A stretch of 64,000 nucleotides of DNA, taken from assembly GCA_035944135.1 (NCBI GenBank), contig DASZBM010000010.1, positions 806,001 through 870,000 on the forward strand, given 5' to 3'. How positions within the stretch are numbered: position 1 is the first letter of the stretch; each line of letters opens with the position of its first letter. Made by a program: the position numbers and the translations under genes. Shown in pieces: positions 58,742 through 64,000 of the stretch. Source of the stretch: Acidobacteriaceae bacterium. Its GTDB lineage: Bacteria > Acidobacteriota > Terriglobia > Terriglobales > Acidobacteriaceae. A model generated the notes under the pieces. The model was not told the DNA's origin, did not search any database, and saw only the letters and a list, made by a program, of their open reading frames with translations.

Positions 58742-59659
58742 CTACGTTCTGACTCGGGCGCCGCGCGCGCAGTTGATATACGCTGCTGCCGCAGTCAGCC
58801 GCACCGGCAGCTTCGGGTCGCTGAAGAGTTCACCCAGTGACTTCACCGCCGCGGCGTCGTGGCGTTGCCCCAGCGCCTTTGCGGCTGCTGCACGCACTGC
58901 CGCATCCTTGTCATCCAGCGCGTCCATCAACTCCGCGTCGATTCCCCGCGCATGGCTCTCCGCAAGCAGGTTGATCGCCGCTGCTCTGGATGCATCACCG
59001 CCGCTCTTCCGCATATATTCCACTGCCCTGATGCCGAATCCGAACGGCCCAAGCAGCAGCGACGCACCGTCTGTTGCTCCCATCATTGCGAGCTCGCCCG
59101 GATGATGCAGTTCGTGATTCACATCATTTTTCGCGCCATGCATCAGCCCCGGCGTTGCCTTGCGATCACCGTCGGCCACGGCCTTCAGCACCTCTTCGCC
59201 GGAGCGGTCGCCCATCTTCCACATCGTCGCTGCCGCCGTAAAGACAATCTGCGGCTCTGAATCCTTCAGCCGTTCACGCAGCGCCGGAAGCAGCGCGCGA
59301 TTCTTCGTCTGTCCTGCTGCGAGGATTGCCGCGGTACGCACCTCCATGTCGGGGTCATTCATTCCTTCGCGGATCATCTTCGCCGCACGCGCGTCCGAAC
59401 CCATCGTTCCCAGCGCTGCCATTGCGCTGATGCGTGTCACGACAGCTTTGTGCGTCGCTGTCGCCAGCATGTTCCATGCAGACTCAACGCTCGCCGACGC
59501 CGCCTTCACCTCCGGCTCCTCAGCCTCTTGGACAGGCGTGTTCGATCCGACGATCATTGCGTCGGCGTGTGTCACTACTTTTTGTGCCGAGGATCGCGCA
59601 CTTGTGAAGACAAAAGGAAACAAAACGGCTAGCGTGACGAGCTTGCGCGAGGCGTGCAT
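58742..59659 (-). CDS. Exported HEAT-repeat protein A
   Basis: 305 aa. Signal peptide (LVTLAVLFPFVFTSARSSAQ), then five or so HEAT-type helical repeats (AMAALGTMGSDARAAKMI, VRTAAILAAGQTKNRALLP, AAVRAAAAKALGQR, LPVRLTAAAAYINCA). A Gly-rich insertion in the middle reads GASLLLGPFGFGIRA. Such repeats mediate protein-protein contacts. GAGG lies six bases before the ATG. It is a clear tandem duplicate of the next gene upstream on this strand. Confidence 0.75.
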   Translation of the reverse strand: MHASRKLVTLAVLFPFVFTSARSSAQKVVTHADAMIVGSNTPVQEAEEPEVKAASASVESAWNMLATATHKAVVTRISAMAALGTMGSDARAAKMIREGMNDPDMEVRTAAILAAGQTKNRALLPALRERLKDSEPQIVFTAAATMWKMGDRSGEEVLKAVADGDRKATPGLMHGAKNDVNHELHHPGELAMMGATDGASLLLGPFGFGIRAVEYMRKSGGDASRAAAINLLAESHARGIDAELMDALDDKDAAVRAAAAKALGQRHDAAAVKSLGELFSDPKLPVRLTAAAAYINCARGARVRT

Positions 59660-59708
59660 CCGATCCCTCGTTTCTAAAGACGAATTCGTACGTCAGGCCC
59701 GGGAAGCT

Positions 59709-60680
59709 CTAGAACTCGCACTCTGAATCCGACGGCGTCGGAATGTTGTGAATCGCCCGCAGATAGGTCGCCGCTGCGGTCAGCCGCACGGCCAGCTTGT
59801 TGTCGCCGAACATTGGCTGCACCAGCTTGGCCGTGTCATCGCCCGTCCAACGGCCCAGGCCCTTTGCCGCCGCGGCTCGCACAGCTGGTTCGCCGTCGGT
59901 CAGGTCCTGCACCAGGACCTCGTGAACCTGATCGGTATGCTGTTTCGCGAGCTGATCGATAGCGGCCGCTCGTGGCGCGGCTCCGCTGTCCTTATTCACC
60001 ATCTCGATCGCCTTCAGCCCAACGCCGAATGGACCCAGGAAGTATCCCGACCCCTGATTGACGGCAATCATTGCCATCGTCTTCGGACTGTGCAGATCCT
60101 TCGCGGCTTTGTGTTTCTCGCTCTTGATCAGTCCCGGGGCAGCTTTGTGGTCGCCCAGAGCCACCGCCGTCAACAGGTCCTGCCCTGCTTCGTCATGCAT
60201 CTTCCACAGCGTGATCGCGGCGGTGTAGGCGACAAGGGAGTTGTCGTCGTCCAGCACGCGTTCGAGCGGCGGCAGTAATTTCGGGTTCTTCGTGAGTCCG
60301 GCAGCCAAGACGGCCGCGACGCGCACGTCATAGTCCTTGGCAGTGAATCCCTCTTCGATCAGCCGCGCCGCACGCTCGTCATTGCCCATCGTCCCCAGCG
60401 CCGCCATGGCCTGGACGCGGTCATGCGCCGGTCGTCCCGGCCCCGCTGCATCCGTCAGGATCGACCACGCGCGAATCTCGTTCGGCTCGAAGTTCTGTCC
60501 CTTTTCCTCTGGCTGACGCTGGTCCCGTGGCGGGGGCGCGACTTCCTGCGGCTGCGCCTGCTGGACGGGCGCGGGCTGTTGCTGCGGCGGAGGCGTCGGA
60601 GTGGTGTCCTGCGCATGAACCGGCCCGAAAGTAAGGCCGGCCAAAAGGGCGAAGCAAACCGTCGAGCGACGTGCGTTCAT
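59709..60680 (-). CDS. Exported HEAT-repeat protein B (tandem paralogue)
   Basis: 323 aa from MNARRST, chosen over a longer frame because AGAGGAG lies just upstream and a signal peptide (FALLAGLTFGPVHAQ) starts there. A Pro/Gln-rich spacer (~23-60) precedes HEAT-like repeats aligned block by block with paralogue A: MAALGTMGNDERAARLI, AAVLAAGLTKNPKLLP, VRAAAAKGLGRW, and the insertion YFLGPFGVGLKAIE. 49 bases separate the two genes. Envelope scaffold function is inferred only. Confidence 0.75.
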   Translation of the reverse strand: MNARRSTVCFALLAGLTFGPVHAQDTTPTPPPQQQPAPVQQAQPQEVAPPPRDQRQPEEKGQNFEPNEIRAWSILTDAAGPGRPAHDRVQAMAALGTMGNDERAARLIEEGFTAKDYDVRVAAVLAAGLTKNPKLLPPLERVLDDDNSLVAYTAAITLWKMHDEAGQDLLTAVALGDHKAAPGLIKSEKHKAAKDLHSPKTMAMIAVNQGSGYFLGPFGVGLKAIEMVNKDSGAAPRAAAIDQLAKQHTDQVHEVLVQDLTDGEPAVRAAAAKGLGRWTGDDTAKLVQPMFGDNKLAVRLTAAATYLRAIHNIPTPSDSECEF

Positions 60681-60909
60681 AGGCTCCTCTGTCCTAAACC
60701 TCGGCGCTCGCCCCGACGGTAACAGGGTGCGCAAAGTTCATAAGAATACAGATACTTACGACGCAGAAGGATTGACTGCGGTTGTTTCCTGACCAGATGA
60801 ACTTCGCGTCAGACACGGACGGAAGTGGTACCCCGGCTGCTCAGCTTGCGTTCCTGGCAGTGCTAGACTGAGCGCACTTTCCGGGCTCAACGGGCTCTGC
60901 AGGCGGGAC

Positions 60910-62502
60910 ATGCTGTTCAAGACGCGCAGCGCTGCGGTCTACGGGATCGACGCGCACCTGATCGATGTAGAAGTAGACTTCTCGAACGTTGCACAGAAAG
61001 AAGAGACCTTCAGCGTCGTAGGCCTTCCCGACGCCTCCGTTCGCGAGAGCCGTGACCGCGTTCGCTCAGCCATCAAGAACTCCGGCTTCGACCTTCCGCC
61101 CACCCGTATCACCATCAATCTCGCGCCCGCCGACCTCAAGAAAGAGGGCTCCGGCTTCGATCTCCCCATCGCTGTCGGCATCCTGGGAGCTTACGGCGGC
61201 CTCGCAATTGCCGACATTAGCGACTTCGTCCTGGTCGGCGAGCTCGGCCTGGATGGGAGCATTCGCGCCGTTCAGGGCATGCTGCCTATCGCCATCGCCG
61301 CAAAAAATGCAGGCATCCACCACCTCATCATCCCGGCCGCCAACGCGCGCGAAGCCGCCGTCGTGGATGGCGTCAGCGTCTACCCCGTCCGCAGCCTGCT
61401 CGAGGTCCGCGAACTCCTCAACTCCGCCGCACATGGGCCGGTCAAGGCTGAGCCTCTCCGCGTTGAATCCCGAGCGCTGCTTGAAGAAGCCCTCGACCAC
61501 ATCGCCGACTTCCGCGACGTCCGCGGCCAGCATGTAGCCAAGCGAGCGCTTGAGGTCGCCGCGGCCGGTGGCCACAACATCCTCATGATCGGTCCACCTG
61601 GCTCCGGCAAAACCATGCTGGCCAAGCGCCTGCCGTCGATCCTCGCGCCCCTGCGCTTCGAAGAGGCCCTCGAGACCACGAAGATTCACTCCGTCGCGGG
61701 CGTCCTCAACAAGGACGAGGGCCTCGTCACCCAGCGGCCCTTCCGCTCGCCTCACCACACCATCTCCGACGCGGGCCTCATTGGCGGCGGCATGGTCCCG
61801 CGGCCCGGCGAGGTCAGCCTCTCGCACAACGGTCTCCTCTTTCTCGACGAGCTCCCCGAGTTTCCGCGCAACGTCCTCGAGGTCCTCCGTCAGCCGCTCG
61901 AAGACGGCAACGTCACCATCGCCCGCGCGGCCATGTCGCTCTCGTTCCCCGCGCGCTTCATGCTCGCCGCGGCCATGAACCCCTGTCCCTGCGGCTACTT
62001 CAACGACAAGAGCCGCAACTGCATGTGCACGCCGCCCATGATTCAGCGCTACGTCTCCAAGGTCAGCGGCCCTCTGCTCGATCGCATCGACATCCACATC
62101 GAGGTCCCCGCCGTCCAGTACAAGGAGCTCCGCGGCGGACAGGCCTCCGAAGGCTCGAGCGAGATCCGCACCCGCGTCATGAAGGCCCGCGAGCGCCAGC
62201 ACACCCGCTTCCTCGAATCCGAAGCCCGCACCAGTGGAAGTCCGCGTGCGGCGAGTCGCGCTGTCTATTCCAACGCGCAGATGACCACCAAACAAATTCG
62301 CACCCACTGCGAGCTCTCCAGCGACGCCGAAAAGCTGCTCGAGCGCGCCATGCAGCAGCAGGGCCTCAGCGCCCGCGCCCACGACCGAATCCTCAAGGTC
62401 GCCCGCACCATCGCCGACCTGGACGACTCGCAGGGAATCGCTGTGAAGCACATTGCCGAAGCGATCCAGTACCGCACGCTCGACCGCAGCTACTGGGCCT
62501 AG
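60910..62502 (+). CDS. comM: ComM/YifB-family Mg-chelatase-like AAA+ ATPase
   Basis: 530 aa. N-terminal Lon-protease-like domain (~1-170: [34 protein letters not shown]), then AAA+ core with Walker A GPPGSGKT at 228-235, Walker [11 protein letters not shown], and the C-terminal winged lid ([12 protein letters not shown]). A CPCGYFND cysteine pair is conserved in the family. ComM is a hexameric helicase that drives branch migration during natural transformation. comF is 6 kb upstream. The promoter was not clear. Confidence 0.95.
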
Positions 62503-62547
62503 CTCCTTCCCCGTTCCCCGACGAACCCGAGTAGTCACACGTTTGCC

Positions 62548-62616
62548 TAAATTTCTACCCACCCTGCTATCTGCCTGAAAACAGGCCAACTCCTTGCGAG
62601 TAGGTAAATTTCTACC
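62548..62616. repeat. Two TAAATTTCTACC direct repeats upstream of a promoter
   Basis: TAAATTTCTACC occurs at 62548-62559 and 62605-62616. The second is nearly palindromic (GGTAAATTTCTACC). Between them is a small hairpin GCCTGaaaaCAGGC. The promoter -35 box starts 41 bases after the second copy, so these may be binding sites for a regulator. Confidence 0.45.
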
Positions 62617-62657
62617 GTTTTTGGGAGGCCAGTCGCATTACTGTTCAAAAAAAAGGA

Positions 62658-62686
62658 TTGACTCGTCCCGCCAGTGACGATAAGGT
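62658..62686 (+). promoter_or_regulatory. Candidate sigma-70-type promoter for the rpoZ leader
   Basis: TTGACT (62658-62663), a 17-base spacer and TAAGGT (62681-62686). A run of A residues (62647-62654) lies just upstream as an UP-like element. Expected transcription start is about 62693, leaving an untranslated leader of ~370 bases. Confidence 0.55.
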
Positions 62687-62692
62687 GCTTTT

Positions 62693-63060
62693 TGTGAACG
62701 CGGCAAACCGGTGAGTTTTACTGGCTGGCGCGCTCATCTTCCCCGCGGAACGGGTGGCCGTTCCGGAATCAGCCAGGCAGTGAATCGGGACTCTCTGATC
62801 TTGCGGAGGGTATCTTCTCCGCGGGGCCGGTCGTCTGCTGTGTGTTGGTTTGTAACTTGTTGAAGCGCAGCAACTTAGAAAATTTGATCCGGCATCGGAA
62901 ACGGATGCATCCGTTCCCGGCCGACTGCGTCTAACCAGATGAGGACCTGCGCCGGCCTGCGACCGGCGGGACTCAATCCACGACGTAGGCCACGCAGAGT
63001 GGAGCTCAGCAGCTCGAGGGCAGCCACCTAAGACTTTCGCAGAGGAAAGAGAGAAACTTC
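62693..63060 (+). other. Long, structured untranslated leader or small RNA before rpoZ
   Basis: No convincing ORF is present. Three hairpins stand out: CGGAACGG/CCGTTCCG with loop GTGG (62746-62765); GCGGAG/CTCCGC with an 8-base loop (62803-62822); and the 16-base perfect palindrome AACGGATGCATCCGTT (62900-62915). An outer pairing of ACTGGCTGGC (62720-62729) with GCCAGGCAGT (62772-62781) has one G.G mismatch and would enclose the first hairpin. GCCGG/CCGGC pairs again near 62952. I could not match it to 6S RNA, RNase P or SRP RNA. Confidence 0.5.
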
Positions 63061-63282
63061 ATGCGCTCAGATCTTATTTTTGGAGCCCTCACTCACGTGA
63101 ACAACCGCTACCAGCTGTGCCAGCTCGCGTCGAAGGCGACTCGCAAGCTCCACAAGCCCAACACCCGCCTCCAGGACACCACCAACGAGGTGCTGGACCG
63201 CTTCAAGGACTCCGTACCCATGGGTGTGGTTAGCTCCGAGGAACCCATCGAGACTGTGGCATCGGTTCGCCGCGCGGCCTAA
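63061..63282 (+). CDS. rpoZ: Candidate RNA polymerase omega subunit
   Basis: 73 aa. The N-terminal half, THVNNRYQLCQLASKATRK and LHKPNTRLQDTTNEVL, has the omega pattern: the 'NRFxLVxLAAKRARQL' helix followed by a loop and second helix. A weak AGAGAAA precedes the ATG. Omega aids assembly of the beta-prime subunit. The upstream leader and proximity to rho are compatible, but the divergence from E. coli omega leaves some doubt. A 16-base palindrome GGCCGCCGCGGCGGCC (63283-63298) starts right after the stop. Confidence 0.6.
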   Translation: MRSDLIFGALTHVNNRYQLCQLASKATRKLHKPNTRLQDTTNEVLDRFKDSVPMGVVSSEEPIETVASVRRAA

Positions 63283-63298
63283 GGCCGCCGCGGCGGCC

Positions 63299-63512
63299 CG
63301 CGCCGTCCCCTGGCCGTGTTTTCCTCCGGTCGAATTTCACATCTGTGATACTGTAATCACGTCCCTCCAGTAATACCCCTGTAACTTCCCCCGCTTACAT
63401 CCCTCCGCGTCACGCTCTTTGCTCTGCCCCCGAGCCTGGAGTCTCTGCACCGCACCAGTATCTCCGCAATACCAAAATCCCTCCTAAAAAGAACGAAAGT
63501 CCACACGACCCC
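63299..63512. other. Intergenic region before rho
   Basis: About 210 bases. It contains the short inverted repeat GTGAT/ATCAC around ACTGTA (63345-63360) and a C/T-rich run. No ORF or clear -35/-10 pair could be fixed. Possible leader for rho autoregulation, unproven. Confidence 0.4.
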
Positions 63513-64000
63513 ATGACAATCACCGAGTTGAAAGAAAAGAGCATTGCCGAGCTCGGCAAGCTCGCCCGCGGCCTGGAGATCCCTGGCACCAGCGCACTCC
63601 GCAAGCAGGACCTCATTTTCAAGATCCTTCAGGCGCAAAGCGAGAAGGAAGGCCACATCTTCGCCGAAGGCGTCCTCGAGATCCTGCCTGACGGCTACGG
63701 CTTCCTCCGCAGCCCCGACTACAACTACCTGCCCGGCCCCGACGACATCTACGTCTCGCCATCGCAGATCCGCAAGTTCGATCTGAAGACCGGCGACACC
63801 ATCTCCGGCAACGTGCGCTCTCCGCATGAAGGCGAGAAGTACTTTGCGCTGGTCAAGATCGAAGCCATCAACTTCGAGTCGCCCGAAGAGACCCGCAACA
63901 AGATTCTCTTCGACAACCTCACGCCGCTCTACCCGCAGGAGCGCATCAAGATGGAGACCGTGCGCGAGGGCATCAGCGGCCGCGTGATGGATCTCCTCTG
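63513..64000 (+). CDS. rho: Transcription termination factor Rho, N-terminal part (cut by window end)
   Basis: 162 full codons visible. Residues 1-45 (TITELKEKSIAELGKLARGL, LRKQDLIFKILQAQ) are the Rho N-terminal SAP-like domain; ~46-120 is the RNA-binding OB fold (EGVLEILPDGYGFLRSPDYNY, DDIYVSPSQIRKFDLKTGD). The ATPase core lies beyond the window. ATG at 63513 follows a weak AACGAAAG. Rho translocates on RNA to end transcription. No unusual insertion is seen in this part. Confidence 0.95.
   Translation, partial: MTITELKEKSIAELGKLARGLEIPGTSALRKQDLIFKILQAQSEKEGHIFAEGVLEILPDGYGFLRSPDYNYLPGPDDIYVSPSQIRKFDLKTGDTISGNVRSPHEGEKYFALVKIEAINFESPEETRNKILFDNLTPLYPQERIKMETVREGISGRVMDLL

Follow-up and report, generated by a model that had tools for sequence, protein, structure and literature searches.

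Two conserved elements precede the rpoZ-like gene in the window, that is, the whole stretch of 64,000 nt of Acidobacteriaceae DNA that was analysed, and their sequences make it likely that the gene is driven by a two-promoter control region, in which a housekeeping promoter (P1) is followed by an alternative-sigma stress promoter (P2) (Table 1). Judging from these elements, rpoZ is probably switched on together with a stress response and not by a folded RNA leader. P2, which lies about 120 nt before the ATG of rpoZ, is absent from an earlier sequence-only reading of the same DNA, in which P1 was suggested as a possible source of an independent small RNA or of a structured leader that controls rpoZ.

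Table 1. Features of the comM–rpoZ–rho part of the window
Feature	Position	Strand	Basis
comM (Mg-chelatase-like), 5' neighbour	60910..62502	+	PF01078, PF13541, PF13335
Inverted repeat, degenerate here, conserved in relatives as about ATTCC...GGAAT, possible regulator site	62612..62626	+	Column consensus
A tract of P1, UP-element-like	62647..62654	+	AAAA conserved in relatives
P1, TTGACT-N17-TAAGGT, sigma-70-type promoter	62658..62686	+	Sequence and conservation
Long 5' leader if P1 is used	62693..63060	+	Body sequence without conservation
Perfect 16-base palindrome AACGGATGCATCCGTT	62900..62915	.	Overlaps the upstream half of P2
P2, TGCATC-N15-GCGTCTAA, candidate ECF-type promoter	62906..62934	+	Conserved core, shared with other genes
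Shine-Dalgarno-like purine-rich tract 5' of rpoZ	63043..63054	+	AGGAGAA-like block kept in relatives
rpoZ-like gene, 73 aa, RNA polymerase omega subunit	63061..63282	+	ATG at 63061
rho, gene start, continues past the window end	63513..64000	+	PF07497, PF07498

The sole NCBIfam match of the rpoZ-like protein is TIGR00690 (rpoZ), with an E-value of 0.064 and 13.3 bits, which is below the cut-off of 23.6 bits, and the protein has neither a Pfam match nor a relative in the PDB. Its label rests on what we take to be an omega motif and on the position of the gene before rho. Homologues are found in 27 of the 28 genomes of the window's genus, the titles of the matched records are mostly those of Granulicella, Edaphobacter, Terriglobus and other Acidobacteriaceae, and the protein is found in 22 of 121 genomes sampled across the class, all 22 belonging to the Acidobacteriaceae. 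A second omega-like gene is present in several members of the genus; in the window's own genome it is located at G000:C2:1350506-1350643 (26.7 bits). The gap between comM and rpoZ is 558 nt; of the 110 loci, 82 have comM within 900 nt 5' of rpoZ, and the gaps measure 305–848 nt. On the minus strand at 58742-60734, two adjacent, similar proteins have the look of HEAT-type repeats by eye. Removal of identical and short sequences from the 110 loci leaves 88 distinct upstream regions, including those of the rpoZ paralogue loci L029-L031.

P1 consists of TTGACT (62658-62663) and TAAGGT (62681-62686) separated by a spacer of 17 nt, in agreement with the TTGACA-like and TATAAT-like hexamers 16–18 nt apart that define a sigma-70-type promoter, and its predicted transcription start is near 62693. 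The sequence-only reading had picked out this promoter, and the comparison with relatives bears it out: TTGAC (with at most one mismatch) followed after 17–20 nt by TAnnnT is present 250–560 nt before the rpoZ ATG in 77 of the 88 regions at a median distance of 407 nt, and is absent from this interval in 11, so that P1 is among the best-conserved features in the alignment of the upstream regions. TTGAC is exact in 75 of the 76 P1-bearing regions with enough sequence further upstream, and 73 of these 76 have AAAA within 14 nt on its 5' side. About 45 nt 5' of the -35 box, 69 aligned regions share an inverted repeat with the consensus atcC..tTT.tgg.a. A direct repeat, TAAATTTCTACC, is located 5' of P1 at 62548-62559 and 62605-62616, 57 nt apart, and its second copy overlaps the position of the inverted repeat. 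A simple promoter scan of 61500-64000 returned no sites, P1 falling short of the match to the consensus that the scan requires. Since the conserved P1 is far from the ATG, a long 5' leader of rpoZ is supported. The view that no open reading frame fits this leader is upheld as well, as the plus strand holds only mechanical frames of 30–50 aa, none of them convincing. A frame ATG...GTCTAA, in which the window has nine codons ahead of the stop, was rejected because in relatives such as L005 and L006 the ATG and the TAA are, by eye, not in the same frame.

The core of P2, GCGTCTAA, is found with at most one mismatch 80–200 nt before the ATG in 72 of the 88 regions, and is exact in 55. It is missing from this interval in 16 regions; one of the 16, L066, carries an exact core further upstream, at 238 nt. 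Both promoters are present in 65 regions, with a median distance of about 255 nt between them. In 80 rpoZ loci from genome contigs, the 8-mer occurs at 53 sites 40–330 nt 5' of rpoZ as compared with 2 sites elsewhere in 1.17 Mb on both strands. In a class-wide sample, which has 20 rpoZ loci, all of the Acidobacteriaceae, 15 carry the core with at most one mismatch no more than 260 nt away. An R-N-C half is located 15 or 16 nt 5' of the core in 71 of the 72 regions as compared with 4–20 of the 72 at seven other spacing pairs, and this falls within the fixed spacing of about 15–17 nt that ECF-type promoters keep. The same spacing also holds for sequences with no hairpin at this position, and the surroundings of the upstream half, which AACGGATGCATCCGTT overlaps in the window, vary in relatives. 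ECF promoters are described as having AAC at -35 and CGT at -10 (PMC8103513). The -35 half of P2 is R-N-C and not a strict AAC, being AAC in some regions and ATC in the window, and the TG-N- start of this half is mostly a feature of the genus: the full TGNRNC form occurs in the 80 genome-contig loci at 15 sites only, all at rpoZ. P2 fits the -10 half and the spacing of ECF promoters, and their -35 half loosely. If P2 acts as a promoter, its transcription start is predicted near 62940.

Elements of the same type are found before other genes of the genus. GCGTCTAA itself is rare in the window's own genome, with 32 copies as compared with 287 of the reversed word. Exact copies of TGNRNC-N15/16-GCGTCTAA number 75 in the 28 genomes, fewer than the 98 copies of the reversed pattern, and so the case rests on the identity of the genes that follow the sites. 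Of these copies, 44 precede rpoZ (18), ftsH (12), clpB (4), the BI-1 membrane protein gene (4), hsp20 (3), rpoD (2) and clpC (1), and one of the two genomes with a copy before rpoD is that of the window. The other 31 precede a gene for a metallo-beta-lactamase-fold hydrolase (6), a GH57 enzyme gene (3), a pilus-type gene (2), lepB, rpsA and a gene for a protein with no Pfam match (1 each), lie about 860–885 nt from clpB (3) or stand before nothing recurrent (14), and several of them are probably there by chance. The three distant sites 5' of clpB, in L172, L232 and L241, were not counted as targets, no hsp20 match being found downstream. The hydrolase gene carries its P2-type element in six genomes (L183, L185, L186, L250, L252 and L253, with the family taken from L183). 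Genes were assigned by reading forward from the sites, with coordinates used as well for rpoZ, ftsH and clpB. Pfam named a single representative of each of hsp20, ftsH, clpB, clpC, rpoD, BI-1, the hydrolase, the GH57 enzyme and lepB; for the remaining members, the assignment comes from search matches or from similarity judged by eye, and for rpsA and the pilus gene solely from the latter.

Footprinting of the genus with TGCRNC-N15/16-GCGTCTAA, allowing one mismatch, places the element before 23 of 27 rpoZ, 23 of 24 ftsH, 5 of 26 clpB and none of 27 groEL loci, so that 21 of the 26 clpB loci are without it. Shuffled core words gave 0–2.6% and wrong spacings 0–3 loci per set, these controls having been computed before partial loci were re-anchored and the ftsH, clpB and groEL counts afterwards. 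The ftsH set comprises 24 of the 28 matches listed, the partial or weaker L308-L311 being left out, the clpB set the 26 closest among the matches listed, and the groEL set all 27. Some groEL genes (L343, L347) are preceded by a CIRCE-like TTAGCACTC, presumably half of a CIRCE/HrcA site, which suggests that groEL is under HrcA-type control, apart from the genes that carry GCGTCTAA.

A different explanation is that hairpins in the P1 transcript control the translation or termination of rpoZ, with the GCGTCTAA block forming the 3' side of a stem. Some members of the genus do have GCGTC paired with an upstream GACGC or GATGC arm, and the 72 regions fold with a mean z of -1.34 as compared with -0.31 for 287 shifted windows. 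For the 3'-terminal 300 nt of the leader, the mean z over 24 relatives is -1.59, beyond the antisense strand (-1.21) and the coding sequences of rho (-0.71) and comM (+0.60). Paired positions that change on both sides exceed shuffles in two small clades (11 of 109 as compared with 6.3, and 11 of 69 as compared with 6.0), so that some of the covariation sought by the sequence-only reading does exist in relatives, but the structures counted come from these same alignments, and the 3' hairpin set gave a consensus fold of four pairs, none with a double or compensatory change. A mid-leader hairpin, CUGUUUC...GAGACAG, is shared by loci of the Edaphobacter type (21 pattern matches, 14 of them aligned) and lies about 270–306 nt 5' of rpoZ (L050:3709-3757 and 13 other loci); a search of the window with this pattern gave no match. 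Because some relatives have moderate extra structure and some covariation, a function of the leader is possible in other members of the family; in the window it is unsupported. There, a 371-nt stretch folds with an MFE z of -1.10, a level that 12 of 100 shuffles reach or surpass, and five 70-nt pieces of the leader range from +1.01 to -0.53. Of the strong hairpins ascribed to this transcript, the palindrome is real; an exceptional structure is not confirmed. Rfam gives no match in the window at gathering score, and the matches that appear when the threshold is relaxed are weak and chance-like; in the loci of 20 relatives, its only match at gathering score is one tRNA. The 15–16 nt spacing is kept where no hairpin forms, and the intervening letters differ before ftsH and other genes, both of which argue against a hairpin arm. 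A transcription start close to the ATG, which the sequence-only reading had named as evidence against its proposal, is probably borne out in part, since the promoter-like P2 would place a start some 120 nt ahead of that codon. Control of rpoZ by a structured leader is thus unlikely.

Still further from what is seen in the window is an independent small RNA transcribed from P1, which would account for an isolated promoter with the next gene far off and for one weak terminator-like match of five pairs inside the leader (62821-62838, plus strand). Such matches are near the shuffle level, however (4 in 2.5 kb, where shuffles have a mean of 2.0 and an sd of 1.6), and the body of the transcript has no sequence conservation: a blastn search (E 0.01) of the window's region against the 88 upstream regions and a DNA search with the leader in 61 genomes each returned the self match only. 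The 6S RNA, considered as a candidate for this locus, lies elsewhere, its RF00013 match being at G000:C4:127504-127692 with none in the window. With folding at chance level, an independent small RNA is hardly credible. It is also conceivable, with small probability, that GCGTCTAA and its upstream half form an operator for an activator or repressor of proteostasis genes that is not a sigma factor, the element itself being no promoter. Palindromic features around some copies and the location of the site downstream of the conserved P1 would suit an operator, but the two-part, asymmetric form of the element, its promoter-like spacing and its ECF-like CGT core point to a promoter.

The sigma factors of the window's own genome are RpoD, a FliA-type factor and many ECF-like factors. 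None of the 28 genomes has an RpoH (TIGR02392) match over the cut-off, the best reaching about 141 of 323.1 bits, and this cut-off was passed in 2 of 14 control genomes. Since P2 fits the -10 half and spacing of ECF promoters, ECF factors are present and no RpoH is over the cut-off, we infer that an ECF sigma factor may drive the proteostasis and polymerase genes, with P2 as a candidate promoter of this type. A search 5' of the sigma genes examined in the own genome gave nothing above chance. The best copy of the element, with two mismatches, lies 188 nt upstream of L144, an RpoE-like ECF gene (G000:C3, near 81555), and since 27 of 400 random 600-mers carry an equally good copy, L144 is a lead only. 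Some ECF factors do not show autoregulation (PMC8103513).

Taken together, these observations lead to the following model of two-promoter control. P1, with its A tract and the conserved inverted repeat on its 5' side, would be read by the housekeeping sigma-70 and would yield a long-leader rpoZ transcript during normal growth. P2 would be read by an alternative sigma factor, probably of the ECF type, whose targets in the genus would include the ftsH protease gene, some clpB genes, hsp20, clpC, the BI-1 membrane protein gene and, in two genomes, rpoD. Under protein-folding or envelope stress, this factor would raise omega along with the quality-control machinery. More tentatively, and with somewhat less than an even chance of being right, there is the possibility that in the Acidobacteriaceae, from which RpoH is apparently missing, a large part of the proteostasis response (FtsH, Hsp20 and BI-1, with ClpB and ClpC in some species) is under a single ECF sigma factor, perhaps L144, which would act through TGCANC-N15-GCGTCTAA promoters and would also raise omega and, in some species, sigma-70. 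If so, the composition of RNA polymerase would be tied to protein-folding stress. The element supplies a promoter code that can be put to the test, together with a set of target genes, and it connects subunits of RNA polymerase with protein quality control.

In the open-licence literature, whose coverage is incomplete, no published description of TGCANC-N15-GCGTCTAA was recognised and no account was found of heat-shock-type gene control without RpoH in the abundant soil Acidobacteria. Two papers report many sigma-E homologues in Solibacter (PMC3174227) and, in Granulicella sp. WH15 under high sugar, an increase in a SigW-type factor with a decrease in rpoD and hspA (PMC7074687). The data on WH15 are compatible with a joint movement of rpoD and a heat-shock chaperone and are no test of the element.

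Three known systems resemble the proposed one in part. P2 resembles ECF sigma-factor promoters, of which those of the E. coli sigma-E targets are an example, in its two-part form, its R-N-C upstream half, the distance of about 16 nt and the CGT-containing -10 half, and its targets likewise include stress and membrane-protease genes. However, the -35 half is mostly TGCANC in the genus instead of a strict AAC, and the targets here include chaperones, rpoD and rpoZ. The RpoH (sigma-32) heat-shock regulon, whose targets include ClpB, FtsH, a small heat-shock protein and rpoD, overlaps with the gene set in these four members, whereas no RpoH is over the cut-off in the 28 genomes, the letters of P2 are unlike the sigma-32 consensus and groEL is without the element. 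The E. coli rpoD gene has tandem housekeeping and stress promoters, and so provides a precedent for one polymerase gene under a constitutive and a stress promoter; in the Acidobacteriaceae, however, the gene is rpoZ and its two candidate promoters are separated by a median of about 255 nt.
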